Shown piece by piece: positions 7,054-51,364 of a stretch of DNA of 64,000 nt. A program made the position numbers and the translations under genes. The notes under the pieces were generated by a model. It saw only the letters and a list, made by a program, of their open reading frames with translations. It had not been told where the DNA came from and ran no database searches. The first letter of the stretch is position 1. Every line of letters begins with the position of its first letter. The stretch comes from Utricularia gibba. Taxonomy: Eukaryota; Streptophyta; Magnoliopsida; Lamiales; Lentibulariaceae. The DNA lies in contig NEEC01000030.1 in assembly GCA_002189035.1 (NCBI GenBank), positions 310,001 through 374,000 of the forward strand. The letters run 5' to 3'.

Positions 7054-8963
7054 TTAGTGACTCTTCCTATTCGATTCTTGTTGACTGGAGCTTCTGGCAG
7101 CTCTCTTCATTTCAAGCAGGGCATCCTCGAAGCATCTGGCAAGAACTTTGGGATCCGGAATTATTTCCTTTGCAACGAGGATCTGCATTTCGGCAACTCC
7201 TGCGTAACTGATCATGTGCATCGTGATGGCCTGCACGATTATCTCAAAGTAAGAAGACAAACCGCGACGCCCGTCATGGGGGTGCCATGAGTGTGCACGC
7301 AGATATATACATATATACGGTCGCAAACTTACATGCGGGAGGCTGCTGGAAGTTACCCTGATGGAAGACATGGGGATGTTGGCCATCATGATCTTCTCCC
7401 TCGGCCCGACGATGTTCGACATTGTGAAACTGGTGTTGCAGATAACGCGGTAATTCAACAGCGCTGCTACCTACGGAAACAACCCAGTTTCTTGAATTTT
7501 GATGTGTTGTTGCAGATGAACAGGATGTCCATTGGGGTTGGGGTAATGAAAAAGCGAAGAAGACTAACTCTGGGTCCAAGAAGAGAAAGAATCAAGTCTC
7601 CAATATGGTAGCTGAATAAAGCTTCCAGTGAGAGCTTCTTATTATCCAACATGGATTTCGATCGCTTCAGAAACTGAATTGGATCGGAGTCACGCTTGTA
7701 GTAGTACACAGGCAAAAGCACGATGCCGAACATGTTCCCCCACCGCGTTCCGGAACCTGGAGCCATCAGCCTGGACAGATCCTAACCAGAAGGAAAAAAC
7801 AAAAACAGTTTTATAGTATTTACAAAAAAAATAAAGAAAAACGCATTTTAGTAACCTGCAATCCCGATTGCGGCCTCAAATTTACCATGGCGAGGCCCGT
7901 GACACGAAGCCCTTCCGTCAGCGCTGCATCGATTTATGCTAACATATAATTGCGAAGCTATATCCAAGGCATGAGTATCTTATTACAACAAGTTGGGAAG
8001 ATTTTCTTACCTTGCGGTGATGTGATGTCCAAGTACCTCGACAGCCCTGATGAGATGATCCCAAAGAGCACGTCGTTTATCGTCTGCCAATTTCACAAAA
8101 AACAACATACACGCTTTTATAGAGAACAAATTTTAGGTGTTTTCCTATTTTACTATTTTTGCGCTAACAGAATACGCATCTTGTCAGAACAAAATGAAAA
8201 TTGATCTCCTGAGGTTGTTATTTGAAAATGACGTTACCGCTTTCTCCAATGAGCCTTTGACGACTTTCATATCGTCCAGCCGGAAGCGCGCTGTCGCCAG
8301 CCGTCGGGGCCAGAGCTCCACCCCGGCGCCGCCGCGGATCGCCGTGTCTTTATCTCTCAACCACAATATCCGGGCCACAAACTCCAGGGCGTAGATGAGA
8401 GTAAACCACAGGACCATGGCCAATTTCAACGCACTCCACCGACGCGGCGGGCCAGAACCTGCACCGACCATACTTGGTGCTTGCGACGGATCATTGATTT
8501 TCCGGCAACAGGACATCATAAGTGACATCAGAGATATTCCATCGCCAAGCGCGTGGTGCACACGGAACACGATTGTTTTGTGCGCTAAAAGCAAGTGCAT
8601 CTCCCACAGAGGCTTATCGATTGGGAGCGGCGAAGAAACGGTTAAATCGGAGATGTAATCATTTACGGCGTCGCAATCGGAGACGCCTGAATCATCGGTT
8701 AGTCTCTCGAATCGGAGGATTAGGTGTTGATCTATGTCGATCTCTGTTTTTCGCCAGAATTCACGGCCGGCGGCATCTCTGACTAGGAGACTGCAGAATC
8801 TAGGGTGCTTCACCATGAGTGAGTTTCGGACCTCACTTTTAATTGTTTCGACGGCGTAGTGATGCTCTAATTCGACCGCGGTGTTGATGACCTGGTCCAT
8901 CTCTGTTCGCAAGAAGAGACGACCGGCCGGAGTCAACGGCTGGTCTGGCTCCGCCGTATTCAT
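7054..8963 (-). CDS. WSD: Wax ester synthase/diacylglycerol O-acyltransferase (WSD family), six exons
   Basis: The exons are 8238-8963, 8011-8083, 7856-7923, 7569-7781, 7333-7470 and 7054-7230. All junctions have GT...AG on the minus strand and the phases add up to 1395 nt, a 464-residue protein close to the usual family length of about 480. Bifunctional WS/DGAT enzymes join a fatty alcohol or diacylglycerol to an acyl-CoA, making wax esters or triacylglycerol; plant members act at the ER in cuticular wax production. The catalytic HHxxxDG motif is present (HHALGDG, residues 136-142) after PLW (118-120). The family blocks INDVLFG (from 244), GLAMVNLRP, GTRWGN and SNIVGP follow in order, and the C-terminal half has MHMISYAG and FEDALLEM. 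No disabling change was seen. A hydrophobic stretch (LAMVLWFTLIYALEFVARIL) may hold it to the membrane. Start choice: first ATG of the long exon, just before the acyltransferase block. Confidence 0.93.
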
Positions 8964-15197: not shown

Positions 15198-15427
15198 ATG
15201 GATCAACATGAAATGCAATCTCAATATCGTAGCATCAATTCGCTCAATCCGCTAGCAGATTTGCACAGAGCTAATCCACTACAACTGAGTGGCTCTGATC
15301 ACCTGAACGTGTCACTGGTGAACGATATGTTGACAACGCACAACTATTTTGATTGGCGTCAAGGTGTACGACTGGCGCTAAAAGCGAAGAACAAACTCGG
15401 TATTGTATATGGAGGCGTTAGAATTGG
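15198..15427 (+). pseudogene. Ty1/copia gag N-terminus, cut off
   Basis: The frame from ATG 15198 reads NPLQLSGSDHLNVSLV, then NYFDWRQGVRLALKAKNKLG, the conserved start of Retrofit-type copia gag (family pattern: W, R, ALxAKNKLGF). The match stops at about 15427, where hAT terminal sequence begins. The copia zinc knuckle and pol reappear at about 19440 in the same orientation, so both pieces may belong to one element split by later insertions. Confidence 0.75.
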
Positions 15428-16985
15428 GCACAAATATGGGTTGACCCATTACCTGTATCCACCCAAAATGGTTACGGGATGGGTTGGAGGTGTACGGGTA
15501 TGAGTCGACCTGGCATTTCAGCCCAAATGGGCCTATAATGTAGTCTATCAAGTAGAGTTGGGCTGCTCAATTGTTGGGCTCAATCTCTTTAATGTATATG
15601 AATGTTATAAAGGCCCAATTCACTAGAATATAAATACATGGACTAATAATATGTTTTTCAAATGCTTGTGCCCCTCCCACTTTACATTTTCATGTGTTGT
15701 TCATTGCACATTTAGAAGATTAATTATGCATTATTGAAGGCTTTCAAACCAAAATTGAAGCTGAATCCCTAAAACCCACGTGTTTTGCGGTGTTTGGAGA
15801 CCTTTCAAATTGTATGTGTGTGACTATCCAAAGAGAAATGGAAGCATGTGTATGTGCGGTTAATAGTAACTTATGTAAGGTTTGGAAATCATTTGTTTCT
15901 CCCAATTGTGTTTCAGGTAACCCAATATGGAAGAATCATATCAAAGTATGACACCCTCACATGAGCAATATCCGGAGTGTGATATTGAGGTGTTGGGCGA
16001 TGGGGAAGATGTCTCTTTCACCTCAAACGAGATGCTTCATGTAACAATTGGCATGAACATTTCAACCACGACAAGGAGGGCAAAATGGTATGTTGTAAGT
16101 ATTGCGGTATCGTGTATGATCATGGTAAGAGTGGTTCAACTTCCAATTTCATTCGTCACATTAGAATTAAGCATATAGACAAGACATGTACTTCATTGAG
16201 ACAACCTACCTTGAATTTTGTGCATGGCCATGTTTTGAGCTTTTCATTTGATATTGATGTGCTGAAGTGGATTATGTACTTGTATTGATTGTTAGTGAAA
16301 AGCCTTTTGTAGAAGTACAGAATCCATTTTTTTGACATTTTTATCAATCTAGATTGCAATGTAGATTTGCTCCCGTGTCTAGGAGAAAAGCGATTAGAAT
16401 TGCGTTAAAACAATTCGAAGAAAAAAATCACGTTTGATCTTTGATTTTCAATCTATGAAATGCAAATTTGGTTTAACTTGTGATGGTTGACATGGTATAA
16501 GTGGTGAGAATTATTTAGTTGTAATTGCTTATTGGATTGATTGCAAATGATTTATACAAACGAGAATCCTTGAGTTTATGGATTCTCCACACATAAGGAC
16601 AAAAATTTCTGAATTTGTTACTTCTATATGTATTGAGTATTCAATTGTTGATCGTGTATTTAATATAAATCTTGATAATACCTCCAATAATATTGCTGCG
16701 ACATCCATGCTGAAATCATCTATGAATCCTATTTTAGGTGGGTGTTTCTTTAGGTGATGCATTTGTCATATTTTGAATTTATGTGTATAAGATGCACTGA
16801 ATGTAAATGATATTGAGGCTGTTTTGTCTAGTGTGTGTCGGATAGTTTATCATGTGAAGATGTTTAGCACAAAAGGGCATCTTTTAAGCATTTATGTGAG
16901 TTAAAGAATCTGCCATTCCGAACTCTAAAAATAGATTTACCAACACGATGGAATTCTACATTTTTTATGTTTCACTCTATATTTT
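15428..16985 (+). pseudogene. hAT-family transposon relic with BED zinc finger transposase
   Basis: A BED zinc finger is readable at about 16045-16220: W/H residues, then MVCCKYCGIVYDHGKSGSTS and HIRIKH, which gives the C2H2 pattern. Further on are hAT-like blocks in changing frames: NYLVVIAYWIDC near 16510, and FKHLCELKNLPFRTLKIDL followed by PTRWNS near 16880-16955. The C-terminal dimerisation region is not visible and many stops are present. The upstream part has repeated 'gggcc/gggct' phrases as in hAT ends. No 8-base duplication could be fixed. Confidence 0.7.
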
Positions 16986-16989
16986 TATG

Positions 16990-17262
16990 CTTCAATCCCT
17001 CCAGGCACTGCAAATATACCATCGCGGTGCTTGACATTAGAAGGCTTCAATGTCCTCCAGGCACCGCAAACATGACATCAAGAGGCTTCAATGTCCTCCC
17101 GATACCAAAAACATGCCAATGTGGTGTTTGAACATTAGAAGGCTTCAATGTCTTTTAGGCACCACATGCAGGTCATTGTAGTGCGTGGACATCAAAAGGC
17201 TTCTATGTTTTTGGTTCAAGCACCGCAAATTTATTGTTGCGATGCCTAAACCAGGCAATCTA
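16990..17262. repeat. Array of imperfect palindromes around GGCACCGCAAA
   Basis: Four to five units of about 55 bases carry 'ccaggcaccgcaaa', about ten bases, a reverse partner such as 'gcggtgct', then 'gacattagaaggcttcaatgtcct'. Each unit is an imperfect palindrome. Related motifs occur at 24236-24436 and 28440-28790. The array lies just downstream of phosphatase copy A, which suggests a subterminal repeat region of that transposon. Confidence 0.65.
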
Positions 17263-17419
17263 TCTCAATGATCTCCATGCATTATAAATGTAAAGAGGCA
17301 GAATTGCATTACGAATGTGCTACAAAACGAAATCAATGTTTCAATGAAAAATGCATTACAAGTTTGGAAATTTAGAAATAAGTTGCGGATGGTGTCCCTT
17401 CTCTCAAAAAATGCTATGC

Positions 17420-19046
17420 TTCATTCACGAAAGTTGGCATATTGGAGGCCACTACTAGTCCCTCCAAGAAGTTTCATATCTCACCTCCTTTTGCCAAGGC
17501 AATATCCTCAATATTTTTATGGGTGTATGGCATAAGAAAGATGGCATTATCATGCTGTGGAACATCCAAAGTTACAACTGGTAAGTATGCTGACACAAGA
17601 GTGTAACATATAATATTCAGAGAATTACCATCAGTAACTCGATTCCTAATACACTTGAATGGTGAGTCATCAATAAGTAGTGTATGGTTACTATGATACT
17701 TTCCTTGGAATCCTGCATCTGGATGTCATCAGTGCTCCAACTCTTTTAGCATCACATTCTTTGCATGATTGTTATGAACATCTACATCTATTTCGCTGTT
17801 TTTTGAGGCATCCCATATAAAAGCCAATCTGTTGGCCTCCATAAAGCCAAAGACCCACTTCACTATCCCATCAAGTTGTGCCCTATAAGAGAGTTTCAAC
17901 ATAAGTCACATGTATCAAACAATGAAATATGCAATAAAGTTTATGATGTCAATATTATGCGCCCCGTGATGACCATATCCCCACGTCAAGGTGCTCCATA
18001 CACCATTCAATAAACTATCGGGCATGAGGTTGTAAGAAAACTATAAAAAAAAAAACACAAAGCATTGCATCAGAGCCGTATAATGTATAAACACTGAACA
18101 TATTATCTTCACCTTACCATATCTACCATAGATGACTATGCATAAACACTGAACAGTCTTTGAGATCGACCTCAAAACACAATATCAGCCAACACACCAT
18201 TTACATCTAATACAATCAATTTCCTAGGAGCTTCCACAGCAACGGGTTAGGGGCCACCATAGATCCATCAACTCTCATACCACTCCAATTTTTCACAAAG
18301 TGATATGTTTTCTTCTAGTAGATGACTAACATCTATCTACTAAATCTCTTGATGGACTCGAGTATTGTTACTGGACTCTTCTACAACATCATCATCAATT
18401 TCCTCAACGTGTGCTTGTAGGCATTTACGAGACACCCTAGTTTGACCACATCAAAAGCAACAAGTCCCTATGAAATTGACATATGGTGGCAATATATCAT
18501 TCAAAAATAAACTCTTGTAACCGAAAATATCAAGGAGCGCATCTACTCCTTCACGGGGTATCCTCTCAAACCCTGCGCTAATTTTTAAGTGAGTCAAATA
18601 AATTTTGGATGAGTGTTTTACTTGTGATACAGAAAAAATACCATACCCTTTACCTTTCCGACAGTAGATGAAGACTCAAGTTGTGTGGGAAAATCTAGTT
18701 CTTTCGAAGGGGACACTCACACGAAACTAGTCCACCAATTATTATACCCACTATGCACGTCTTCTACCAATGTTATACTTGGCTTTCCTTTCAATGAGAA
18801 GTGGTTGGTTCTCCAATTTTTCTTACATTTGCTAACTGCAAAAAAAACTAGAAGAGCAAGTACAAGGCGTTCTTTGGCACACACGCTCATGAATGATAAA
18901 ACATATGTGACCAGACAACAAGTTAAATGAGAAAACGGAACTTCTAGGCAATTCACTAATTCAACTAAAAATAGCTCCATGGGCAATCTCAGTCCATGTT
19001 GAAAGTGTTTCGTACTAACCGCAAAACCCAACGGTCCAACCCGCAA
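17420..19046 (-). pseudogene. NIF/FCP1 phosphatase-like transposon gene, copy A
   Basis: On the minus strand the order is: (1) 19046-18717, a transposon-protein-like domain (STKHFQHGLRLP, SHLTCCLVTYVLSFMSVC, NHFSLKGKPSITLV, WWTSF); (2) a short exon ending STVGK|GTAAAG; (3) about 18570-18350, GVDALLDIFGYKS, DILPP and a zinc-knuckle-like CCF.CGQTRVSRKC; (4) from about 18240, the phosphatase start KLIVLDVNGVLADIVF; (5) about 17910-17420, QLDGIVKWVFGFMEA, HTLLIDDSPFKCIRN, PQHDNAIFLMPY. NIF/FCP1 domains of the HAD superfamily remove phosphate from proteins such as the RNA polymerase II tail; motif I is DxDxT, with DxN variants in plant relatives. Here DVNGVL and DDSP remain, but stops and shifts break the frame. 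The same order recurs in copy B at 24.6-27.7 kb on +. Confidence 0.7.
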
Positions 19047-19439
19047 TGGAAGGTCACCATCATTGGTCTCCTCATCCTCCTTGTCCTATAGGAAGAAGCT
19101 GTCGGGTATTATGACCCACAGCCTCAACTTGTCTGATGTGCGCATCGTCTCGAGTGTGTGTAGTGCTACTTCAAAATTTAAAAAACCACCTAACAAACCT
19201 TTTCTCCAGCTCCTTGCCAACTTGCGCCTTCAACCTTTCTTGGTATGCGTCACAATTCAAGGCAATTATCATAATGATTTACACTCTGTGAAAACGCGTT
19301 TGTAGTGTGTCGAGCGGCGAGTTGTAGTGTGTGTTACCATGGGTGAAAAGTGTGTGTTTTAATTGGGGTGGTGAGGGTTTCAATGAATATATATAATATT
19401 ATTAAATTTTATAAAAAAAAACGGCCGTTCATGCTAACT
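19047..19439. other. Non-coding stretch
   Basis: No homology recognised. It probably includes the upstream end of the copy A transposon and the junction back into the copia element; 'acggccgtt' at about 19422 lies at the junction. Confidence 0.4.
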
Positions 19440-22030
19440 CTACAATGCTAGCAAGGTCATTGCAAATGCAGATCACTAATGCACAGAGACAAGATACTTG
19501 GTATTGCATAATTTGTAAGAAGGCAGGACACATGGCTAAGAATTGTTTCACCATAAAAGAGCCACCGCCTTGATGGAGGAAAAAATATAGTAAAACCAAC
19601 AATTCTTACCAGCGGTCCCCAAGGCAACATAACCATCAATAATAATATACATATGCTCAGCCCCCACAAGCTTGGGGTACTCTATTCACTCTACCTAGAT
19701 AGTTGGGAACTTATGAGTCATATAAACCTATGGCTTATTGCATGGAGACTTCCATGGATGAATCGTCTCATTTGATTTCCCATGATCATAACCCCACGTA
19801 CTTTGACTATGTGCAGCTCATTCAACGGTAACTTGGCAAGCTCTTGAGTGGGAGTACTCACACACCAGCACCTACCACAGGCAACATATAGTAAATATGA
19901 CTGAGTTGGAGTTCACAGGTACATATTTTGACTCATGCATGGAAAATGACATTTCCACGAATTGTACGTGTAATACTTGGGAGTGGATATTGGATTTTGG
20001 TGCCACAACACACATTGGATACTCGAGTGCCTTTTTTGGCTCTCTACACCTTGCTGTCAACATCCAAGTTCGATTGCCAAATGGACACTCTGTGCCGGTG
20101 AACTACTTTGGTGATATATTCCTCACCGATAGAATTCGATTATTACACACTCTTTGTGCCATAGTTCAAGTTTAACCTTATATCAGTGAAGTGGTTGATC
20201 GATGATGCAGGTATATTGGTTACTTTCTTCAGCCAATATTGTACTTTGAAAGACCGGATTACAAATAAAGTTCTTGCTGTTGGGAGACTCAAGAATGGCC
20301 TATACATTCTGTATAAACGCTCATTCATGTCAGCCCTACTTGACAGTTTTTCTGCATTGCATGGGACAAAGGAGGTAAAGAGTGCTCTCACAAATGTCTT
20401 GCTACCAAAGCTATGCTTCTATGCTGCTAGTTTACAGCCTAATGATGAAAGTCTTTTATGACACTACCATCTTGGCCATGTGTCTGACTCTAAGTCCATG
20501 CATTTGCCCTTTGCTTGTGGATTGAATGGCACTCCCTGTGATGTTTGTTAGTTTGCTAAGTTTCACAATCATTCGTTTTCTTTAAATGCATCCAGAGCAC
20601 CTCATGTCCTCTATCTCATACATTGCGACCTATGGGGACCTTCTAAGTACTTTCTCACGATTGTAGACGATCATACTCGGGTCACTTGGACCTTCTTGGT
20701 CAAGAAGAAGAGCATGGTCAAGGACTAATAGCTGCATTCCTCAGCTATGGGGAAAATCACTATGAGCATACTACCAAGCATATATAGTCTGATCAGGGGG
20801 GGGGGGGGGGGCGAAGGAGTTTTTGAATTCCATGTTTCTGACAGCCCACATGTGCAAGGGCATTCATCATCAGTTTTCGTGCACCCGAAAACCCTAGAAA
20901 AATGTGCGGGTAGAATGGAAGCACAAACACCTGTTAGAAGTGACCTGCATGCTGATGTTCGAAGCCGGCTTACCCAAGGAATTCTAGTGCGAGGCTATCC
21001 TTACTGCAACGTATATCATCAACTGCCTGCCCTCCTTTGTGCTGGAATGGAAAACACCTTTTGAAATTTTGATAAACAAGCCTCCTAACTTTGATCATCT
21101 ACACGTATTTGGCTATCTTGCGTATGCTGGTAATACAAACGAGGACAAGTTGGTGCCTAAAGCATGGAAATATATTTTCCTTGAGCCTCAGGATATGGTC
21201 TCTCGAGATCTAGCCTCATACATTCCTGGGCATAATTTGCCTCAGGCCGATTCTGATCTATCTCCCCACAACAACTCCATGGGCAGTGCTAGGTCTGATA
21301 ATTCAGAGGGTCCTATAGCCCCTGTTTGTAATGAAGACCCTGTGCAGCACAATGTTCCGGACACTAATAATCATATGTTGAGGCACAGTGCTTGCCTATG
21401 TTCCTCACTAATCTATTTACACGACTATTCCACATACCAGATTGATGCTTCGGAGTCTAATGAGCCTTGCTTACTCACAAAGCCCAGGCATTATAAGAAG
21501 GCATCTCAGCATCGTTCTTAGCATGATGCTATGCAGTAGGAGCTGTGTGCTCTCGAGTAGAATCATGCATTGAAATCAAATGCTTGCGATTGTTTGCCTT
21601 TACCCCAAATCAAATGCAGCATCGTTCTTAGCTGGGACATAGTGCCTTTACCCCTCAACAAGCTTGCGATTGTTTGCAAGTGGATCTATAAAATCAAATG
21701 CTTGAAAAATGGACAAATTTTCAGATACAAAGCTCGCCTGGTGGCTAAGGGTTACACACAGGTTGAGGGCATTGACTTTCATGATGTTTTTCTCTTGTTG
21801 CAAAGGCAACCACCATCCGCATCCTCATGGCTCTTGCAGTGCTACATCGGTGGCATCTCCATCAGGTAGATGTCAATAACACCTTTCTCCATGGGTACTT
21901 GGATGAAGAGACCTACATGAACCCCATGAAGGCCTCTCGTGTTGGGTTGGGAACATTTGCTTACTAAGAAAATCCTTATACAGTTTGAAGCAAGCCTCTC
22001 ATCAGTGGAATCTTTGAGATAACAAAGTCC
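19440..22030 (+). pseudogene. Ty1/copia polyprotein relic (gag zinc knuckle to reverse transcriptase)
   Basis: Read along + in shifting frames: a gag zinc knuckle (WYCIICKKAGHMAKNCF, near 19500); a protease block (WILDFGATTHI, near 19990) in which the catalytic D-S/T-G has become D-F-G; an integrase N-terminus (HYHLGHVSDSKSM, CDVC) and core (LIHCDLWGPSKYFLTIVDDH, near 20620-20690); a tail (HLHVFGYLAYAG, near 21095); and a reverse transcriptase start ([47 protein letters not shown]). The match ends near 22030, before the YVDD box. Stops, shifts and a run of 16 G disrupt it. Confidence 0.85.
20796..20811 (+). repeat. Run of 16 G
   Basis: An uninterrupted G16 tract lies inside the copia integrase remnant, right where the frame is lost. 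Such tracts can form quadruplexes and are prone to slippage and sequencing error. Confidence 0.9.
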
Positions 22031-22069
22031 TTCATGGGACAACGAGTCTTGCACCTTTTGATGCATTCC

Positions 22070-22276
22070 ATTTCGTTTTTCATCAACTGTTGTGTTTTAG
22101 AGTCGAGCATGTGCGTGTGAGTGCTTGCACCTAAGGATTTGTGGTAAAGCCTTACTTGCACAAGTCTTGCACGTGTGACTGTCTTATTATGTTGTTTAGT
22201 ATTTAATTTGAGGTTCGATTCTCTTTTTTCGCAACGTTTTCTTAACTAACGTGCTCTCTAGTACCGCATAACCTTA
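22070..22276 (+). repeat. Family Y LTR, middle part, left of the Harbinger insertion
   Basis: The phrases 'gcacctaaggatttgtggtaaagcc', 'cttgcacaagtcttgcacgtgtgac' and 'gtgctctctagtaccgcataac' follow the course of the Y LTRs at 33090-33260 (+) and 55160-55330 (-). The match stops at 'accttaa' (22276) and resumes at 29972. The 5' part of this LTR is missing or unrecognisable. Confidence 0.7.
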
Positions 22277-22857
22277 AAGCCCTCATTTTTCAGGTGGGTT
22301 TAGCCCTCTAAACCCTTAGGTAAAAAGTGTTGTATGTGTTTTTTGTGGTGGTTTAGTAAAACCCAAGGGTTTGTATTGTCCCGAAATAAGCTTGTAGCTG
22401 ATGGTTTCACACAAATACAACTTTTTCGATAATACCCTTCTACTCCATAAGCAAATCCACAACAGTAAATCTGTGTATTTTTTCATCCTCTTCAACACAA
22501 ATCTGTTGGGTTTTTGGAGGTACATGGTGAGTGAGTTCGAATTTTGATATTTCGATGAAAACCCATACTTCAATTTAAGCCAAGAGTTCTTATTTTTTTT
22601 TTTTTCGCATATGATGGAGTCGGGTGATTTTTTTTTTTTTTTTGAAAATCACAATAGGTTGTGTGTTGCTTATTCAGGCTATTGCAATGCTTTCAAAGAA
22701 GATTATTTTGGCTGCCCTTGTTGCGGCGCATTGCGTTGGTCAACACCTATGCGTTATGCGAATTATGATTGTTATAATGTTGCATTTCTTTTGTACACCC
22801 ACCGATAGGAGAATTCGGTTCTCATAACGAGAAAAGATACCGTGACAAATAGAGTAT

Positions 22858-23970
22858 TTGTCTGCCTTGATATCTTATTCAAGGAGTGCTTGTCTTGAAA
22901 ACTTACGCTTAAGTGCAAATGTCTTCAACAAGTTATGCTATGTTCTTCGAAGTAATGATAGACTAACCACTTCAAGGTATGTTGATGTTCCAGAGCAGGT
23001 TGCATTGTTTTTGGGTATTTTAGGTCATCATAGGAAAACAAGGCAATAAAAATTCGAATTCATGCGAAGTAGCTGGATAGTGTCCAAATATTTCAATGTG
23101 GTATTGTCGGCGATGCTGTCATTGCATCAAAATTTACTTAAGACACCTGTGTCAATTGATGTTTCTGATCCTAATTCTAGCTTCAGATTTTTTGAGGTAT
23201 GCAAGCAGATTTTTCATTGTAGTTCTGTATTCTGCATGCTGTAACTCTCTTGTCTATTTTTTAGAATTGCTTGGGTGCATTGGATGGCTCATATTTCTAG
23301 GTGAAAGTCAAGAATTAGGATAAACCAAAGTGGAGGAATCGTAAAGGAATCGTGTCCACTAATTTGCTAGGAGTGTGTGATGATAAGCTCATGTTCATCT
23401 ATTTGTTGTCCGGGTGGGAGGGATTCGCTGGTGATAGCAGGGTGCTACGAGATGTAGTTTGTTGACAAAGAGCATTCACTATACACAATGGTAAGTGCTT
23501 ACAATGTGTAGAAGTCCATAGTTATGAGTGACTTTCATGCATTCCATTTTTTTGTAGGGCATTATTACTTTTGTGATAATGGCTACACAAACGTAGCGGG
23601 ATTTCTAGCACCCTACAGGGGTGTTCGGTACCATCTGAAAGAGTGGGGTGCTGGGTCCAATGCTCCACAGAATGCGAAGGAATATTTCAACATGCGCATG
23701 CTTCTGCGAGGAATGTTATTGAGAGGGCATGGCGTTTAATGAAAATGAGGTGGGATATTTTACGAAGTTATAGTTTTTATTCGATGAGAAATGCCAACTG
23801 ATCCATGGGAAGAAGTCATTCCGGAAGAGTACCACAATCCGGATTCACAGGACTACGAAGATGATGAACATATTTCCTCCATAGGAAACTTAGAGGAGTG
23901 GACACAGTGGCAGGATTCAATGGCTGAGAGAATGTTTGCGCAATGGAGAGAGACCACACGAAGAAGGGTA
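22858..23970 (+). pseudogene. PIF/Harbinger transposase (HARBI1-like nuclease), broken
   Basis: In successive frames: CLENLRLSANVFNKLCYVLR and PEQVALFLGILGHHRKTRQ (22880-23045), MRSSWIVSKYFNVVLSAML, CLGALDGSYF (first catalytic D, near 23285), RNRKGIVSTNLLGVCDDKLM, LSGWEGFAGDSRVL, then CDNGYTNVAGFLAPYRGVRY (second D, near 23580) with HLKEW (candidate E), and ARNVIERAW...MRWDILRSYS. The C-terminal segment MPTDPWEEVIPEEY...WTQWQDSMAERMF at 23791-23973 is as in plant HARBI1-like proteins. Several stops and an intron-like gap (23195-23260) break it. The catalytic motifs can still be seen, but no continuous frame is left. Confidence 0.85.
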
Positions 23971-24235
23971 TAAAGTGTACTAATAAACACTGATGTTTTA
24001 TTGGTTTGGCTTAAAGACATTTCATTTCATTTTCCAATAGTTGATAAGCATTGCCCTGTGTTGTATTCATATTGTGCAAACACATGAGTTATGCTAGACT
24101 ATTGTCACAACAATGTGATACATTCATTGGAAACTGGAATTTGCAGTGCTTGGAAAGATAGGATAACTTGAAGGATGCTTTAGGTTTACACACACCGTTC
24201 ACTCATATGTATAGGTGCAACTATTGCATGCTCTA

Positions 24236-24436
24236 CACTATCTCCATGTACATTGGAAGAATTGTGTTCCAGGCACTGCAAATTCCTGCTCTCGGTGTCT
24301 GGATGAAATGCATTCCTAACACCACAAAAACGCCCCTCTCAGTGTCTAGGAGACATGCCTTCCACGCACTATAGAATGCCGCTCTCACCATCTGGAAGAC
24401 ACGTTTTAGGCACTGCAACCTTTGTTCGTGGTGCCT
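24236..24436. repeat. GGCACTGCAAA palindrome array, left of phosphatase copy B
   Basis: About four units of roughly 55 bases: 'ttccaggcactgcaaattcctgctctcggtgtctgga', and variants at about 24310, 24365 and 24408 ending 'gtggtgcctgga'. A related phrase (tttgcagtgcttggaaagatagga, 24143) matches the array at 28485 in the same direction. The array flanks copy B on its 5' side. Confidence 0.6.
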
Positions 24437-25074
24437 GGAGCAATCATGGGCCGGAATGAATATTAGGCCTCGCTTATCTGGGCCTCATAAGAAACCCTCC
24501 GGCCTAGTCGTCACTTCCCTTCACCACGCACCTAATCGCTGCTCACTGCAGACCAGGGCACACTGTCCTCACCTCAGCCACATGGTCCCTCCACCATTTG
24601 CTTCCCTCAAGAAATGCTTACTTCCAAGAAACTCCAAGTTCGGTTCGCAATTCCAAAGACGTACAATCTATGGGACAAGGCAAGTGATGACACGATTGAC
24701 GGTGAGGTTTTGTCTAGGGTTGGAGTGATCGGATTTTCGGTGTCCACCGAACACTTTCGGTGTGGACTTCGCTTGCCACCACCACCATTCATATGCGAGT
24801 TGCTAGCATGTTTGGAGGTCCCATTGTCCCACCTGACACCCTGCTCAATCGCTCATGTGTTGGCCTTTTTGAGTGTGTGCATGGAAGAACAAATTACTCT
24901 GGCCCTACCAGTTTTTTTTTGCAGTGAGTGTGTGTATTCGAAACTGGAAAACTAATCATTTCTCACTGAAGGGTAAGCCAGGTATTGCACTTGTGAATTC
25001 TATTCGGAGTGGACATGATGCATGGTGGACAAGCTATATTTGGGTGTGTGACGAACGTTTAGAATGAGGTTGCT

Positions 25075-26330
25075 AAATGTTGCGGTCTAGCACATTCAAT
25101 GCATCAAAAGAAATTTATAAACCTAGCTATTCTACTACAAAACAAGGGTCGAATCCACAGGGATTAATGTAGTGTGGCAAGCAAGGGTTGAATCCACAGG
25201 GATTAATGTAGTGTGGCAAGCAAGGGTTGAATCCACAGGGAATGTTTGCAATTTCCTGAAGTTTATCACATTTACTGAAAACAGAGGGGTTTCCTAGGGT
25301 TTAGTTCTAACACGGATAAGACCTAAAATAACAGTGACTGAAAGAAACGAGTTGCAGGGATGAAGAGACACTTAAATTAACACGAATGCATAGGAAACAT
25401 AAAATAAAAATGATTTTACTGGGTTTTACACCAGGGTCTAGCTCTTGTGTCACTCAAGAGAGCCCATAGGCTTAAGTCTAGCTTTGGAACGCTTAAAAAC
25501 AAGGCAAGGGTTTGTAGACACAGAGTATGGGTTCGTAGGACCAGTCAATAGCATATTAAGCTTAAAAGAAAACGTGAAAAGCTTAAACAGAAACATGTTT
25601 ATAAGCTAAAGCAAGGTTACAAAGAGTTTCCCGTTCATAGCAAGGTACCGAAATGCAGCATAAAGCATAAAAACCAAGACAGTAGCAGTAGCAAGTTCAC
25701 GCAGAAATAGAAGTGCAGAAAATGGAAAATAAGGCGTCTAGTGGTTGCTCTCGGTCGAAGATCTGCTGAAAATCAAGTTTCTGGGCAGAATGACGGTGTA
25801 GAAGTGTAGATCTGGAGGTCGCCGAAGATGTTTTCCAGAGAAATGAAGTTCTCCTCACTCCTGCTCCTACTGTTCGCTGTCTGTGCACTCTACGTACACA
25901 GTATGCTCTCCCTTCTCTCTCCCTTCCTTTTTCCTTTTGCCACTAAAAAGCAAGGGTAGCTTTGTCTTTTCCCTAGGCTTCTAGAAGGGAGATCTCTGCT
26001 CCAAATCTTATCTTCTCAGAAGAGCGGCTACTTTCAGCGGAAAGTGACTTTTGCACAGCTTTTCTGTTCTATTTGACTTGTCAACACGGAAAGTGCGCAG
26101 TTACAGTACTAGCTCTTACCCTGGTAAGACTTAAAACACAGACTAGACGAAATATTACAGTTTTCGGTTCAATTGTTTCCAATTGAGCCTGTTTTCACAA
26201 TAAACATATTTCAATAGTCTAAATACGCAAAAGAAGACATTTTAGCACACTAAACAACATTTAACCCTACAAAACACACTTAAAAACATATATAAAAACA
26301 CAATAAAAACACAATAAAAACGGTGTTTTC
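25075..26330. repeat. LTR-like insertion inside phosphatase copy B
   Basis: The stretch interrupts copy B between WWTSYIWVCDERLE and the exon ending KTIGK, where copy A has no such sequence. It has features of large gypsy LTRs (a 'gaatccacaggga' phrase near its start, a CT-rich core near 25870-25940, AT-rich ends). The bases 'ttgct' occur at both borders and may be the target duplication, but the TG...CA ends are not clear. Confidence 0.45.
25143..25241 (+). repeat. 39-base tandem repeat, 2.5 copies
   Basis: The unit beginning CAAGGGTCGAATCCACAGGG is repeated at 25143, 25182 and 25221 (third copy partial), with only a c/t difference between the first and later copies. The near identity points to a recent duplication within the LTR-like insertion. 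Confidence 0.9.
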
Positions 26331-27667
26331 ATTGTGTTTGCTGGAAGACCTACGAATTCCAACTACTCTCGGCTCCTTCAAGACAATCGGAAAGGTAAAG
26401 TGTAATGTGTGATGTAGTATGGTTGCATGGCTAGTGTACTATGATTTATGTTATTCAATTATTCATGTTGTAGGATTTGATAGACTATCGAAGCAGGGGT
26501 GGATGCATTGTTGACTATGTTCGATGAAAAGAGTGAGGCGTTGAGTGACATACTACCCCCTGTGGTGGACGCTGCCAGTACTCGCCACTTCTGGTGTGGT
26601 CACGGCAGAGTGATACGCGAGTGCCCAAAGCCTGACGACATGATCATTGAGGAAGAGATGTCACTAGCATTTGCATCTTATTGACAGCGGAATGTAGGGA
26701 GCAATGTGGAGGATACATTGGCCCCAGCTACGTTCAAGGCTAGATTGGTATGAAAGTAGGTGGGCATACACTGGACCCAGTTCATCGCAAGCAACAAGTG
26801 CGCAAGCTCCTTGTGTTGGATGTCAACGGAGTGCTAGCGACATTGTCTTCAAAGCCAAGTACTAAAGGTTGCATCGGAAACTAGACGCTGTGATATATGA
26901 GCGAAATAGTAAGACACCTTAACATTGTCTCATGGTTGTGTCATGTTCAACTGATCCATTAGTTTTTCTCGCTTTGGCAGTCTTCCTCAGGCCCTTTGCT
27001 CACGAGTTCATTGAATGGTGTCTTGGAAACTTTGATGTCGACATATGGTCTTCAAGGGGCACGTAAGTCCCACTCCACAAAATCTGCAGTGCATGCGCTG
27101 CTATCTAATACTCTAACATCTCTCTAGGTTCTATAGTGCACAACTACATGAGATCATCAAGTGGGTGTTTAAGCCAGATGCAGACACCTCACTAGCTTTC
27201 ATATGAGATGCATCAAAGACCACCTAAACGCATGTACGTGTGCATGATAATAGGTCAAAAGATGCTATGTTGAAGGAGTTGTCATGGATTTGAGGGGAAG
27301 ATGAAGGCTTCTTGGGTCGGTATGATGCAACCAACACCTTACTTATTGACTCCGTTCAAGTCCATCAGAAACCCAGTTAAGTCAATCTGCAATCATATGG
27401 TCTGGTACGCATGTTTCTTGCTGACACTTAGGCCATGGTCTTATTGTGCCACAGCATGACAACGCTGTCTTCCCGACGCCATACCAGTACACGGATGTAA
27501 GAGATGCTGCGTTAGCTGAGTGTGGAGAAATACGCATATTCCTTCAAGGTCTACTAGAAGCAAATGATGTACCAAGTTTCGTGAAGCATGCACGAATTGG
27601 ACAGCCTCCATTGGATGCTAATCACCCCTATGGGATTATTACAAAGTACTTGCTTGAACATTCATAG

Positions 27668-28439
27668 CATGTAACAATGGTTTGAATTTCGGAACATTAT
27701 TATGTGACTCAGTCTATTTTAATCATGGATTTTTCAATATACACTTGATAAATTAAAATAAGTAAATATATGTTCTCAAATATTCTTATATGCATATTTA
27801 TTTTAAATAATACCTTGATTTAATATCTTATATTTCTTAGACTACTTTGTTTACTACAATGCCAAAAGAATCCGTTTTAATAATTGGATTCAAAACATCT
27901 TTTATTTATTACACGTTTTATTGATCATGTATAATATTTATTAGTTTTTAGAAGTATAATCTTTTTACTTATTTTCTTTATGAATTTTAAATATTGACTC
28001 TACGAAACAAATTTAAACATGTGGTAACATTCAAAATAAATGAGAACTAAAACAATCTTGAATCGAAAATTCCATGTAAAATATTACATGTTTTTATAAA
28101 TAAGAAATTTATCAAAAACTTGATGCAAGTTAATGAATTTTTCTTATTGAAAATTCTACATATCCGGATTGTATGTGAACACGTAGTCATCATATATTCA
28201 ATTGTCAGGAAACAAACTAATGGAAATTTAAATATTTACACTCTTACACAAATTCTTGAAAGTCTTATTGAATAAAATTGTGTCTATTTAATTTCCATAA
28301 AATACACATAGGATGTGATCAATCAAACTTGTTGTTATTCGATATGTATGTGCATTGGACATATTTTAATTTATGATAGTTGTTGTAATTAAAATAGATT
28401 ATTATAGAGATATAGTGAATTTACATATCATAATATATG
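27668..28439. other. AT-rich non-coding stretch
   Basis: Strongly AT-rich sequence after the stop codon of phosphatase copy B. I see no coding frame or recognisable repeat. Confidence 0.5.
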
Positions 28440-28790
28440 CACACAGGCACTCAGTTGGGGCATCGATGCTAGGTACTGCAAGCGCATATTTGCAGTGCCT
28501 AGAAAGATAGGATGCATGCATCCGAAGGACAATCCAGTGTAGTCAATACTTCAAATCGCATGTGGGAGGTCATGCTGGGTGCCACACACAGCAAGACTCA
28601 GTTGGCGCATCGATGCTAGGCATCGCAAGTGCATATTTACGGTGCTTGGAAAGATAGGATGCATGCCTCCGAAGGGCAATCCAGTGCAGTCAATACTTCA
28701 AACCTAACAGTGGGAGCTCGGGCTGAGTGCCACACACATACACTCAGTTGGCGCATCGATACTAGGCACCGCATGTGCATATTTGTTGCA
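28440..28790. repeat. Tandem repeat of about 155 bases with GGCACCGCAA palindromes
   Basis: Units start 'actcagttggcgcatcgatgctaggca(c/t)cgcaagtgcatatttgcggtgc' and continue with 'aaagataggatgcatgc' and 'gaaggacaatccagtg'; starts are near 28446, 28600 and 28740, giving about 2.3 copies. The core pairs 'aggcaccgcaa' with 'tttgcagtgcct' as an imperfect palindrome. It lies 3' of phosphatase copy B. Confidence 0.75.
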
Positions 28791-29020
28791 TCAGCCTGCA
28801 TCAGCCACAGAGTACTCAGCCTGCTTTGTTGCATCAGTAGCATCAGGGACACATTCTGCAAATTCTCCAGTGGCTCTATCTTTACCAAAGATGATGCACC
28901 AATCTGGATAGTAAGGCTAGCGCTTAAACCGCAACAAGTTTTACACATTCTCATTGTGCTGCACATGTAATCCATAAGTGTACATTAATAATCTCATAGG
29001 AACGACCTACTACATATACA

Positions 29021-29345
29021 TTAGAACAACAATACCTGTTTGAACTCCACCCACAAATCCTCACTAGCATCTACCATGTTTGTTGAGTTATCATAGCCGG
29101 TACATGACTTGTTGAGAAAGTCAGATAGGGTATTGTAATCTTTTTTCCAGTTATGAATCTTTGATTGCATATGGGGAGTGCCTCTGATATCTGACCCAGG
29201 ACACAATTTGAGGAACGCTTCCTCTAGTACTTGAAAGTAATTACCTTTGAATCCATTCTTTGCTTTCCACCCACCTTGAATGATATCCTTTAGAGCGTGG
29301 ATCAGAAAGTGCTCTTCATCAGGTTTCCACTGTCTTTTGGTCTTA
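29021..29345 (-). pseudogene. Myb/SANT-like DNA-binding protein of the Harbinger element
   Basis: On the minus strand one open stretch reads RQWKPDEEHFLIHALKDIIQ, GGWKAKNGFKGNYFQVLEEA, FLKLCPGSDIRGTPHMQSKI, then NWKKDYNTLSDFLNKS. This is the Myb/SANT-like domain (PF12776-like) found in the second protein of PIF/Harbinger elements, which binds the transposon ends and brings the nuclease to them. The domain is continuous here, but the exon start (a splice acceptor or start codon) and the C-terminal part are not recognisable. It lies on the strand opposite to the transposase, 5 kb away. Confidence 0.75.
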
Positions 29346-29971
29346 ATGTTGTCACCACTTCTTCCTCATTTTGTTGTAGGGACGTTTGCTCCAACCATGC
29401 CTGCAACCAATATGTAAGTGCACAACCAATGACAAAACCACGATGCACAGGTAGCTGAATATGGCACAGGAAGTATAACAACATTATATGGGTTTCAAGG
29501 GCACCATTCACATCCATATTACTCAAAAAACATCACACACTAACACCCAGTCACTCAATCTATGTGGTTAAGGTCATTCAAGGGGAAAATGAAATAAACA
29601 CCTCAAATTTGAGAAAAAAATACCTGGTGCATCACCCAATACCCAATTTTTCGGTAGATCAAACTTGCTCCCGGAGTTACATGAGCCGAAAATCCATGAT
29701 ATTACATCGCAGATCGATGGTTTCGAATTCCCCAATCTGTGAATCTCACATTTCTATATGTGGGTTTAAAACAGGATAATAAGATATTATATTATGCATA
29801 AAGGGTATATTAGAGAATTCCTTTATTCTAGTATTGAGAACCTATACATAAATCCTTCTAAAAAACATACAAAATTGATAATCCCATATAATTGAACCCT
29901 ATCTACCAAATACATAATTCATTCTAAACCATTATTTATGGGATACAAAAAACTAAAATAATCTAACAAAC
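29346..29971. other. Right end of the Harbinger element
   Basis: Non-coding sequence leading to the terminus CTAACAAACATGGC at 29958-29971. The 150 bases before it are AT-rich, as in Tourist-like ends. No gene beyond the Myb-like domain is supported. Confidence 0.45.
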
Positions 29972-30460
29972 ATGGCTGAAGGAGTTTGAAAGAATCAAAG
30001 TTTGGCCTTAAGCACCTAAGAAGAAGGGCTCAATTGAACATCATTATGTCTAATCTATTTACGAGATGTGAGGTATAGGGGTTAGATTTGGGTGCGGAGA
30101 AAATATGGGTTATCACAATAGGTGACAAAGCTCTGGTGGGATGGTTGATTCTATAATCATACTAAACGATGGACGGTGCTATAATGGTTACAAAGTAGTA
30201 CTATTTTAGAATAACACCCCAAAAGCATGCGCAACCAGGTCAGTTTTCATGGTTTGCACACACACACAAGAATGAGTTTTAGACAAGGTGGATGCTAGAT
30301 CCAAAGCCATTTTTCTATATAGTTTTAAAACCAATCTTTCACTTTATTTTTTCTTTTTTGAGTCATTGTTTTGAAAAGAAAATTCCAATAACAATTTCCT
30401 GTGGATACGATCTTTATTTATTAATTCGAGGGTCTTTGTACACTTGATAAATTAACACCA
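29972..30460 (+). repeat. Family Y LTR, 3' part, right of the Harbinger insertion
   Basis: 'ggccttaagcacctaagaagaagggctc', 'gaggtataggggttagatttgg', 'ggacggtgctataatgg', 'gtagtactattttagaataac' and 'cctgtggatacgatctttattta' follow the Y LTR at 33280-33462 plus 34535-34833. It ends at CA (30460), directly before a degraded primer binding site, which identifies this LTR as the 5' one of a Y element. Confidence 0.75.
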
Positions 30461-32773: not shown

Positions 32774-33462
32774 TGATAATTTTCGACACACAAGGACACC
32801 AAGTCCAATTACTACACCCAACCTTCGCTGATCACTATGGTGCAAAAAAGCCTGTTTCAAAGGATGAAAATTTGGTACAAGATTTGTGGATAAGATAAAG
32901 ATTTGAAGATGATCTATGAAAATCTAGATAAAAGATTTCAATAAAAGATCTTATCCAAGCTCAGCAAACAAGATCAATACGAAGATTCGAATCTTCTCTA
33001 ATATAAATACTCCACTCTCTTAACCATATCAGACATCTATAGACTATTTTTCCTTTTTATTTTTCCTATTTTCAAATTTATTTTCATATTAGAGTGAAGC
33101 GTGCATGTGTAGGCGTTTTTAGCTGAGGATCTATGGTGAAGCCTTCCTTGCGCAAATCTTGTGCATGTGATTGATTTACCATGTTTTTTGACATTTAATT
33201 TGACGTCTAATTCTGTTTTTTGAAACGCCTTCTTTACAACATGCTCTTTTTACCACATAACTCAAAGGGAATGTGGGAGAATCTCGGATTGGCCTGAAGT
33301 ACCTAAGGAGAAGGGTTCAATCATACATTGTTGGTAAGACACAATTTGTCTGCTCTGTCTGTGAGATGTGAGGTGTAGGGGTTAGATTTGGATGTAGGGA
33401 AAATACGGATTATCACAAGAGGTGAAATGTCTCTAGTGGCATAGTTGATTCTATAATCTCAC
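32774..33462 (+). repeat. Family Y LTR, 5' part of the 3' LTR
   Basis: The match to the complete minus-strand copy (54671-55821) is clear from about 32860 ('atttggtacaagatttgtggata', 'aaaagatcttatccaagc', TATAAATAC at 33002-33010, 'cttaaccat', 'gaggatctatggtgaagcc', 'gatttggatgtagggaaaata', 'gttgattctataatc'). The start at TGATAAT (32774) is a guess because the first about 80 bases have diverged. It breaks off at 33462, where a solo LTR is inserted, and resumes at 34535. Confidence 0.75.
33002..33010 (+). promoter_or_regulatory. TATA box of a Y LTR
   Basis: TATAAATAC. The same box is present on the minus strand in the complete Y LTR (55422-55430) and as TATAAATAG in the fragment near 58947, so it is a conserved promoter element of this family. 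Confidence 0.6.
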
Positions 33463-34534
33463 TGATAACACATATTTTTGAGTATTTAGGAGTAACAAAA
33501 TGTCTAATATTTTGCCAAAAAACTCAAATTCTGGCATGAATTTCTATGCTTTTTTTGACTAATACTGCAGTCACATCTTTTATTCCTAATTGGGACTAAA
33601 TATAGCTTTAGTCCCAATCTTAGTTCTAATTTTTTCCTAGAGCGATGCACCAGTTGTTAGTCAACCCAAATCCTGAGGAGCCAAAGAAGAACAGTGTAGT
33701 TGTAGAAAGTGTGGACAAAAGGGTGAATGGAGTACAACCAAATCCCAAGGAGAAAAAGAAGAGAGATTTTGGTGATAATGAGAGAGAAGGATCTTCCCAT
33801 TGGAGAACATGACACACACTAGAGGGGAGGAGATGTGGGATGAACTAGGAAGAACAATGAAGAAGACATCTTAGGAACAAAGCTCATGTCTGAATACTGT
33901 CTTTAGTTTTCTATTGGACTTTTTACATTCTATGGTTGTTTGTTTTTGGTTATCGAACTTTGATATGAGTACAACATGGATGATATTTTATGTTCTATTT
34001 TCATTTATCTTAAGCATGAGTGGCTAAGCATTTACGGGTGTCTTGGAGGAAGGGGGAGTAGTGTGCTAATCAATCTTTATACCTTGTTAACCATAAATCA
34101 CACTATTTCCTTAACAAAACAAGATAGATCCAAGAGGAGAAAGTAGTGAAACTCATCTTAACAACCTTAGTTAGAGCTAGACTAAAGATTGGGGGGGAAA
34201 CAAGATCTAGACTTTGTGAGACGTTTGATTTGTGGTTTAGGTGAGAGTGTTTTAGAGATAAGCATACATCCCCTGAAAGTCCCAAGGCATCACCTGATCT
34301 CATTCTAGATAATGTTACATTTTTACCTGTTTACTACCTTTCTGCATGTTATTACAAGCTTTTTAATCCTGGCCTAGACTAAATCTCTTAGTTGTGACAT
34401 CTATTGAATGCATTGATTTTCACATAATCACTATGCTCATAATTGTATTATGCTTAAACATGTATTAGGTTTATAAATTTTATTTGATAGAAGAATTTGT
34501 AATTTTGACAACGTTGAATTTTTTTTGTTTATCA
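33463..34534 (+). repeat. Solo LTR of family Z inside a Y LTR, target duplication ctcac/cccac
   Basis: It starts TGATAACACATATTTTTGAG and ends TTGTTTATCA. It is flanked by ctcac (33458-33462) and cccac (34535-34539), a five-base duplication with one change; the undisturbed Y copy reads 'aatcccactaaacga' at this point. It is the reverse of the LTR at 60715-61885, including the block with 'gatgccttgggactc' (here on the minus strand near 34290). Confidence 0.88.
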
Positions 34535-34833
34535 CCCACTAAACGAGGGACGGTGCTATAATGATCATCAAATAGCACTATTTTAGAATAACATACTAGA
34601 ACTTGTTAAAGCAGGTAGTCTTCAAGGTTTACACACACAAGTAAGGGTGAGTTTTGAGCAAGGTGGAACTTAGACCCAAAGTCGCTTTTTATATTGTTTT
34701 TAAAACCAAACTTTTGTTTTTTTTTCAGTCTTTATGAGTCTTTGTTTTAAAAAAAAATTCCAATAACAATTCCTTGTGGATATGATCTTATTTTATTGCT
34801 TCAATAATTTCTGTGCACTTGTAGAATTACTAC
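34535..34833 (+). repeat. Family Y LTR, 3' part of the 3' LTR
   Basis: 'cactaaacgagggacggtgctataatg', 'aatagcactattttagaataac' and 'ccttgtggatatgatcttattttatt' continue the Y LTR interrupted at 33462. The match fades near 'gtagaattacta' (about 34833), where the element probably ends. The five-base duplication of the whole Y element cannot be tested because its 5' start is lost. Confidence 0.72.
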
Positions 34834-46360: not shown

Positions 46361-46681
46361 TGTTGGATTTGACGATTTGCAAAAAAAAAAAAAAAAAGAA
46401 AAAAAAAAGAGAAAGAGCAAGGACTCCTTAGAAGATCAACAAACTCCCTCCAAACATTCTACATCAATGTCGTAGCTAAGAGAATAAGATAACCCAAATA
46501 CATATGCCACGTCCCATACCTATTACACTCATTACATTTATATTTAATGGTCACGTGGACTTCACACAGCAAAATACAAATACTCATAATGATAAAGCAA
46601 TTACTTCCTAATCTTCAGGTTTTGCTTTCAATGTATTTCTTTCACTGATGTATCTTCAATTCTCCACTACGATCTCCATCA
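46361..46681 (-). repeat. 3' LTR of the complete copia element
   Basis: The longer of the two LTRs because of an expanded A-rich run near 46381-46410. TGTT...ATCA ends on +, duplication gaatc on its left. Confidence 0.92.
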
Positions 46682-51061: not shown

Positions 51062-51364
51062 TGTTGGATTTGATGATTTGCAAAAAAAAAAGAGAAAGAG
51101 CAAGGACCCCTTAGAAGATCAACAAACTCCCTCCAAACATTCTACAGCAACGTCGTAGCTAAGAGAAGAAGATAACTCAAATACATACGCCACGTCCCAT
51201 ACCTATTACACTCATTACATTCATATTTAATGGTCATGTGAACTTCACACAACGAAATACAAATACTCATAATGATAGAGCAATTACTTCCTAATCTTCA
51301 AGTTTTGCTTTCATTGTCTTTCTTTCACTGATTTATCTTCAATTCTCCATTGCGATCTCCATCA
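51062..51364 (-). repeat. 5' LTR of the complete copia element
   Basis: 303 bp, same ends as the other LTR, followed on its inner side by the copia primer site at 51050-51061. Duplication gaatc on its right. Confidence 0.92.

Follow-up and report, generated by a model that had tools for sequence, protein, structure and literature searches.

In Arabidopsis VANDAL elements, VANC, a protein other than the transposase, binds motifs in tandem repeats located in the non-coding parts of its own element (PMC5735166). In Retand/Gypsy LTR retrotransposons, an antisense open reading frame (ORF) codes for TRP28, a domain with predicted DNA binding and no known function; tandem repeat arrays occupy the region of this ORF in about half of the Retand clusters (PMC11963269; see also PMC7264820). 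The Retand study described TRP28 as having no similarity outside transposable elements and its region as having none to other known transposable elements, and reported the domain, PF04195, as restricted to flowering plants, where it is widespread in transposons (PMC11963269). In fungal DNA transposons, TET/JBP dioxygenase genes have been passed among superfamilies including hAT and Harbinger, and were inferred to counter silencing (PMC12730594). The present analysis concerns a gene in which a TRP28 domain is joined to a NIF/FCP1-type phosphatase domain (NIF, PF03031), found as two copies, A and B, in 64,000 nucleotides of Utricularia gibba (contig NEEC01000030.1, positions 310,001 to 374,000 of the forward strand; hereafter the window).

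The TRP28-NIF gene resembles the Retand ORFs in its Pfam domain and as an accessory ORF of plant transposons (PMC11963269; PMC7264820), but differs from Retand TRP28 in its class II carriers (hAT, Harbinger), its NIF fusion and its introns (PMC11963269). Like the TET/JBP genes, it appears to be one accessory gene moving among superfamilies, whereas the enzyme and the kingdom differ, and shared cis repeats are not mentioned in the abstract or section 4.1 of that report (PMC12730594). As with VANC, some of the elements that encode this non-transposase protein also have motif-bearing tandem repeats; unlike for VANC, binding and anti-silencing are here only predicted, by analogy (PMC5735166). Literature searches found no report of a TRP28-NIF fusion, and prior annotation in transposable element libraries is possible. 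The gene is very probably a long-standing accessory gene common to two superfamilies and under selection in the past. The occurrence of TRP28 in two class II superfamilies, fused to NIF and adjoining a common palindromic repeat, makes its binding target concretely testable. Should TRP28 target the repeats, plants would have, besides VANC, a further system of anti-silencing or self-regulation, and the gene would exemplify in plants the movement of accessory genes between transposon superfamilies.

The TRP28-NIF gene lies inside hAT and PIF/Harbinger-type elements

Gene A (minus strand, 17420-19145) and gene B (plus strand, 24614-27655) showed a common order of TRP28, linker and NIF. PF04195 exceeded the Pfam cut-off in gene B and remained under it in gene A alone (Table 1); in L072, a close relative of A, both PF04195 (34.2 vs. 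26.2 bits, E 2.9e-8) and PF03031 (27.5 vs. 21.8 bits, exons joined with X at two stops) were over the cut-off, as was PF04195 in the loci L075 (E 1.6e-10) and L076 (E 1.8e-9). Both window genes are pseudogenes with stops and frameshifts, and exon 1 of gene B is interrupted by a 1.28-kb insertion which is missing from three relatives (L069-L071). The linker exon holds a stretch judged by eye to be coiled-coil-like.

An earlier note on this DNA had described two copies, their strands and their domain order, and these were confirmed by domain and exon matches; the DVNGVL motif and the splice donor GK/GTAAAG, which it had reported for both copies, were found in both. Its zinc-knuckle-like segment did not hold, and a CCHC zinc knuckle (CX2CX4HX4C) was rejected: across the copies only W-C-G is conserved, and the remaining Cys/His positions vary. 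The note had taken A and B for two copies of one transposon. Instead, A lies in a hAT element and B in a PIF/Harbinger element, and, as the note had held, an origin of both from one recent duplication was rejected. Its coordinates are those of gene fragments and not of the elements, which extend over 15419-19421 (A) and 22279-30030 (B).

Two complete relatives of element A, L072 (2683-8333) and L074 (3687-8573), had terminal inverted repeats (TIRs) like TAGAGCTGGGCACGG and 8-bp target site duplications (TSDs) with 7 of 8 positions matching in each; the window element retains a single TIR. The dimerisation domain Dimer_Tnp_hAT was detected in L012 (E 1e-9) and L072 (E 1.8e-11), and in L072 and L074 the transposase lies tail to tail with the TRP28-NIF gene. 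By their BED finger, dimerisation domain, short TIRs and 8-bp TSDs, element A and its relatives (hAT1) belong to the hAT superfamily.

Ordinary plant PIF/Harbinger elements consist of a transposase and a Myb ORF. Element B and its relatives L069, L070 and L071 (HarbB) have both genes and TIR-like ends, and differ from the ordinary elements by a third gene between the two: the TRP28-NIF gene has the Harbinger transposase upstream of it and, downstream, a Myb/SANT gene in reverse orientation. Identity between element B and L069-L071 was 85-92% in the longest blocks. These elements are of the PIF/Harbinger type by their DDE_Tnp_4 transposase (PF13359, best E 8.4e-14 in L069 pieces) and Myb/SANT-like second gene, a pair that is present in L076 too. 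TIR-like ends were found in L069, L070, L071 and window B. Against the 3-bp TWA duplication of this superfamily, the TSDs were weak: L071 had TAA/TAA, the pair in L069 differed at one base, and L070 and window B had no recognisable pair. The termini and target duplications proposed in the earlier note as a check were thus found for hAT, as TIRs and 8-bp TSDs, but B-type TSDs were weak.

Further copies were sought in the genome from which the window comes, apparently sampled in part (516 contigs, 100,091,633 bases). A TRP28 query taken from B gave 150 matches (150 of 258 candidates scored), which were merged to 141 places, a few of them duplicating one another. Two NIF queries gave 35 and 111 matches, and 145 of the 146 rows were used and merged to 115 places. 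The Harbinger transposase list comprises the best 150 of 163 matches, which applies to all Harbinger counts. To control for chance, 200 sets were made in which places were shifted by 20-300 kb and strands assigned at random.

Of the 141 TRP28 places, 74 were followed on the same strand by a NIF match at a distance of 0.6-4.5 kb (median 1,511 bp), against a mean of 1.0 and a maximum of 5 in the shifted sets, which excludes pairing by chance and answers the earlier note's call for further genomic copies with both domains joined. The remaining 67 places are truncated, too diverged for both queries, or have TRP28 alone. Three pairs of places had identical scores (C41:31473 and C451:3877277; C304:866361 and C304:971643; C244:1592324 and C247:25875); these are likely assembly duplicates or recent segmental copies, slightly inflating the counts.

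A same-strand Harbinger transposase upstream and/or a reversed Myb gene downstream accompanied 53 of the 141 places (among the matches listed), a same-strand hAT transposase upstream accompanied 14 (a second hAT arrangement, hAT2), and a reversed hAT transposase downstream, the A-type position, was found at 5; none of these partners was within reach of 69 places. The upstream Harbinger transposase (40, among the matches listed; shifted mean 1.7, maximum 6), the reversed downstream Myb gene (42; mean 2.2, maximum 6) and the upstream hAT transposase (14; mean 1.4, maximum 5) all exceeded their shifted sets, and wrong-orientation controls gave 3-5 each. The reversed downstream hAT transposase (5; mean 1.4, maximum 5) did not exceed the shifted maximum and is not significant alone, so the A-type hAT carrier rests on the aligned complete elements; by gene sequence, one of the five places (C402:2512242, L064) clusters with hAT2.

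The hAT2 locus L075 contains a hAT transposase, the TRP28-NIF gene and, downstream, a second TRP28 gene (7888-8283, contig C213; PF04195 E 1.5e-11). It is one of 7, among 37 further PF04195 places, that follow one of the 141 TRP28 places at 2.6-3.9 kb downstream, 5 of these 7 with a hAT transposase upstream. A second Harbinger family (Harb2) is represented by L076, which holds a Harbinger transposase, TRP28 and Myb. Because no termini of L075 and L076 were found from the single copies, the hAT2 and Harb2 carrier calls rest on order and spacing. In summary, hAT elements contain the gene, and so do PIF/Harbinger-type elements, where it is placed between transposase and Myb gene.

Family trees, codon positions and the source of the NIF part

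Unrooted trees were made from 36 TRP28 rows and 28 NIF rows, with labels taken from the neighbours and four unlabelled rows in each. In the TRP28 tree, A-type hAT grouped with B-type Harbinger and second-type hAT with other Harbinger, the two being split by a 95/93 branch; the Harbinger label needs two changes, which are forced by well-supported branches. The NIF tree was poorly resolved, forcing one Harbinger-label change and being compatible with two. Since the TRP28 tree is split in this way and hAT1 and hAT2 carry the gene in opposite orientation to their homologous transposases, at least two switches fit best, and the sequences support that the gene switched superfamily at least twice.

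Selection was assessed in 38 between-family comparisons of single copies in four exon groups; the pairs are not independent, and the rows were gathered by protein similarity, which somewhat favours conserved sequence. Because synonymous sites were saturated, YN00 returned no ratio of nonsynonymous to synonymous substitution rates (dN/dS) for most between-family pairs, and codon-position counts were used instead. The third position was the most changed in 37 of the 38 comparisons, and the three positions differed at p<0.05 in 33. Differences at positions 1/2/3 were 39/27/88 for TRP28 of hAT1 and HarbB (144 codons, p 1.5e-9), 30/24/58 for a NIF exon of hAT1 and Harb2 (82 codons, p 1.5e-4) and 24/16/41 for the last exon of hAT1 and HarbB (61 codons, p 2.4e-3). 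The exception was the linker exon of hAT1 and Harb3 (62/38/61), and p was 0.15 for Harb2 and hAT2 in one NIF exon. None of the 17 within-family comparisons, with few differences each, reached p<0.05. These patterns support that both domains evolved under constraint (purifying selection) between families, and may be read as families that were constrained while alive and whose copies have decayed since.

Neutral evolution of all copies, a case that the earlier note had considered, does not fit the between-family third-position excess; the within-family signal is weak. Its proposal that a transposon lineage has kept a phosphatase-type domain over a long time is supported by the many copies, the several deep families and the purifying codon patterns between them, on which grounds a one-off Pack-type capture was also rejected; the single lineage, however, gave way to Harbinger and two hAT arrangements.

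A host gene, L077 (contig C4), contained a NIF domain (E 1.6e-17, exons joined) with DLNGLL as motif I, and no TRP28 was found within the 4 kb read. With splice sites read by eye, three intron positions and phases agreed between L077 and the transposon genes: after the YGR/HGR stretch in phase 1 (L072 and B), after WSSR in phase 2 (B) and at NP/GT in phase 0 (L072). L077 differs from them by a basic N-terminal region, two additional introns in its NIF part and an identity of 32-42% to the transposon versions, which are 35-66% identical between families. The agreement in intron positions and phases suggests capture as genomic DNA, and we infer that host genomic DNA was the source of the NIF part, which became joined to a transposon-type TRP28 domain. 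Two further host NIF candidates lie at C505:1969226 and C1:1523897. The earlier note had also raised the case of phosphatase parts that track the nearest host gene; they did not track the one sampled here, save the outlying L024 family, which joined the host on long branches in a NIF tree of 12 rows.

The L024 family is small and separate (C142:581408, C451:5585060, C255:1398378, C98:2188751 and C1:4735088; 75-86% identity to the query copy). Arabidopsis At4g26190 and At3g29760 are probably host NIF/HAD proteins of the DxN type. In the protein database, neither a 499-aa query derived from L072 (best 7,999 candidates by common words) nor an alignment of seven TRP28 rows (2,104 candidates) had a match at E<=1e-3, and the PDB gave two weak matches by sequence (best UBLCP1, E 0.12). 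The predicted TRP28 structure from 18 rows had a mean predicted local distance difference test score (pLDDT) of 52.5.

Palindromic repeats beside the gene and its proposed role

Repeats adjoin the gene as 56-bp units in hAT1 (8.7 copies in L072, 8.6 in L074 and 2.7 in L073) and as 147-bp units in HarbB (2.4 copies in L069), and both units hold the palindrome CCAGGCACCGCAA-nnGCATnT-TTGCGGTGCCTGG. All 12 nucleotide matches between L072 and L069 (E<=1e-3) were located in the gene (58-64% identity) or in the repeats (74-88%, 32-61 bp), and so were all 15 between L072 and L071 (68-86% in the repeats). The 35-bp palindromic unit is the only detectable non-coding sequence common to the A-type hAT L072 and the B-type Harbinger L069, and four chosen units were identical at 30-31 of 35 positions across both carriers. 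The gene's third codon positions are almost saturated between these families; that a non-coding unit should be so well preserved points to function or later exchange.

The number of AGGCACC motifs was compared with 30 Markov simulations per sequence. Against an expectation of 0.5-0.8, two hAT1 elements contained 13 and 12 motifs and three HarbB elements contained 10, 7 and 5; window A had 2 (expected 0.2), and there was no enrichment in two long window stretches outside the elements (2 vs. 1.5 and 3 vs. 1.7). The exact palindrome with 27 fixed letters had 5 occurrences in the 100 Mb of genome and its reversed control 0. Three sites (C402, C414 and C451:4973628) lie in hAT1 copies and C1:5419490 lies in a HarbB copy by position; at C451:5844782, no listed gene copy adjoined. 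The combination of a non-transposase gene and motif-rich repeats in one element was thus present in hAT1 and HarbB, present as a variant only in hAT2 L075, and not found in Harb2 L076.

The best explanation as a whole, to which we give about an even chance, is a VANC-like accessory gene of plant DNA transposons. A TRP28-linker-NIF protein, its NIF part derived from the host as proposed above, would enter the nucleus, where TRP28 would bind the palindromic repeats of its own element (CCAGGCACCGCAA..TTTGCGGTGCCTGG in A-type hAT and B-type Harbinger) and the NIF domain would act on, or dock to, a phosphorylated host factor of the transcription or silencing machinery; the element would stay expressed, by the same logic as for VANC of VANDAL elements. 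VANC itself is another protein family, in Mutator-like element (MULE)-type elements. By analogy, it is possible, with a probability somewhat short of even, that the protein recognises the repeats of the element encoding it and in this way counters silencing or drives expression; action on RNA polymerase II is speculation. More tentatively, and on balance unlikely, hAT and PIF/Harbinger may share an exchanged kit of a sequence-specific TRP28-NIF(DxN) regulator and its palindromic target repeats, so that one protein could serve, and keep active, different superfamilies, with a link to the Retand TRP28 ORFs.

Several points weigh against this VANC-like role. It rests on one genome; no uninterrupted full gene was present among the copies read, L072 itself having two stops in exon 3; and in the pooled within-family comparisons some exons had a slight excess of third-position changes while others had none, with median dN/dS from 0.39 to 1.17. 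The HarbB array has few units, and AGGCACC was not enriched in window B (2 vs. 0.7 expected) or in L076, the only fully covered Harb2-type locus (1 vs. 0.8). L075 had 7 against 0.3 expected as a variant motif only, with no full palindrome unit at <=2 mismatches. That the repeat is better kept than the gene is no more than a lead, since counts within a tandem array depend on one another and BLAST selects short matches by their high identity. The repeats could also be a self-spreading minisatellite. The NIF/FCP1 catalytic motif I is D-x-D-x-T/V. This was not found in the transposon NIF parts, and host L077 is likewise D-x-N; with the second Asp replaced, phosphatase activity and ordinary FCP1-type catalysis are doubtful.

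The DxN motif may instead indicate a pseudophosphatase scaffold or decoy, in which the NIF fold binds and blocks phosphorylated host proteins without catalysis. This reading is compatible with the VANC-like role and agrees with the Asn at the third place of motif I, which was present in 36 of 37 readable rows (the other row has a deletion there; in 8 of 45 rows the matched piece stops before the motif) and in L077 too. However, the first Asp was retained in 34 of the 37 rows and motif IV LIDD in 21 of 26 pattern-matched rows of 40, the pattern missing LVDD rows; a pure decoy may not need these residues, and we consider the scaffold or decoy reading rather improbable.

Of about the same low probability is a transposition cofactor, a protein that aids the transposase by multimerisation, nuclear import or dephosphorylation of the transposase or Myb protein, with the repeats as internal transposition sites and not expression sites. 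The fixed order of the gene beside the transposase and Myb gene fits such a role, and general help is plausible for carriers with quite different transposases. Nevertheless, 38 of 114 Harbinger transposase places (among the matches listed) had a Myb gene without the TRP28-NIF gene in the searched range, so the gene is not in every Harbinger; a further 33 had both, 15 the gene only and 28 neither. Moreover, the hAT and Harbinger TIRs differ, and the motif copies adjoin the gene and not the TIRs.

It is quite unlikely that the gene and the palindromic repeats form a small mobile unit inserting into other transposons. They are the only sequence found in common between hAT L072 and Harbinger L069, and the unit is palindromic, but within a given carrier there is little change in order or orientation, and the motif copies flank the gene on both sides in L069 and on one side in L072. 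Gene capture by plant DNA transposons is common, and the decayed copies with near-neutral within-family codon patterns would suit a passenger, that is, repeated neutral carriage of a captured host fragment (Pack-type), but the fusion in three carrier arrangements, the many copies, the conserved motif residues and the between-family third-position excess in every exon group make this the least probable account of all.

Features of the window and other repeats

The features of both elements are listed in Table 1.

Table 1. Positions of elements A and B and of their parts in the window.
Feature	Position	Strand	Basis
hAT element remnant with copy A; 3' TIR TAGAATTGGGCACA at 15419, 5' end lost at about 19421	15419..19421	-	homology to L072, L073 and L074 stops near both points
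BED zinc finger piece of hAT transposase	15989..16288	+	PF02892 E 1.3e-6
Decayed hAT transposase of element A, tail to tail with gene A	16136..16877	+	C510:326136-326877 matches L072 transposase
Repeat region of element A, CCAGGCACCGCAA-like units at 17001, 17057 and 17216	16989..17424	.	
Gene A last NIF exon	17420..17563	-	tblastn with L072 exon
Gene A NIF exon with LIDDSP (motif IV)	17630..17881	-	
Gene A NIF exon with IWSSRG	17955..18038	-	
Gene A linker exon, coiled-coil-like stretch, NIF motif I DVNGVL (18225 downwards)	18157..18573	-	coiled coil by eye
Gene A TRP28 (PF04195-like) exon	18720..19145	-	PF04195 E 0.0052, under cut-off; homologous to L072
PIF/Harbinger-type element with copy B; TIRs related to GGCCTCGTTTGTTAGGTGGG	22279..30030	+	homology to L069, L070 and L071 over about 22272-29966, TIR-like ends
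Decayed Harbinger transposase of element B	22813..23492	+	C510:332813-333492 matches L069 transposase
Upstream copy of repeat motif (CCAGGCACTGCAA)	24269..24312	+	
Gene B TRP28 (PF04195) exon	24614..24952	+	PF04195 E 7.9e-9, over cut-off
Insertion in gene B exon 1, 1.28 kb	25050..26332	.	missing from L069-L071
Gene B linker exon (matched part); motif I DVNGVL near 26807	26490..26630	+	
Gene B NIF exon VFLRPFAHEFIEWCLGNFDVDIWSSRGT	26980..27063	+	PF03031 E 0.0088 for the piece alone, below cut-off
Gene B NIF exon	27138..27350	+	
Gene B last NIF exon	27446..27655	+	111 genome matches
Two 147-bp-spaced repeats of element B, degenerate CAGGCACCGCA-like motifs at 28616 and 28762	28449..28805	+	direct repeat D3; unit also in L069
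Myb/SANT-like gene of element B	29024..29365	-	PF12776 E 3.1e-11

The insertion in gene B contains a 39-bp tandem repeat, and it is itself a repeat, because 441 aligned bases were 82% like the start of L045. Copia-like retrotransposon fragments (by eye) lie between both elements at 19800-22100, adjoining the lost 5' end of element A. Elsewhere in the window, a repeat family of about 200 nt, 71-84% alike, was found at 30042-30264, 33251-33463, 34617-34830 and 54676-55584, inverted between two clusters. Two 283-bp direct repeats (46399-46681 and 51082-51364), 94% identical and 4.7 kb apart, are possibly the long terminal repeats of one retrotransposon.

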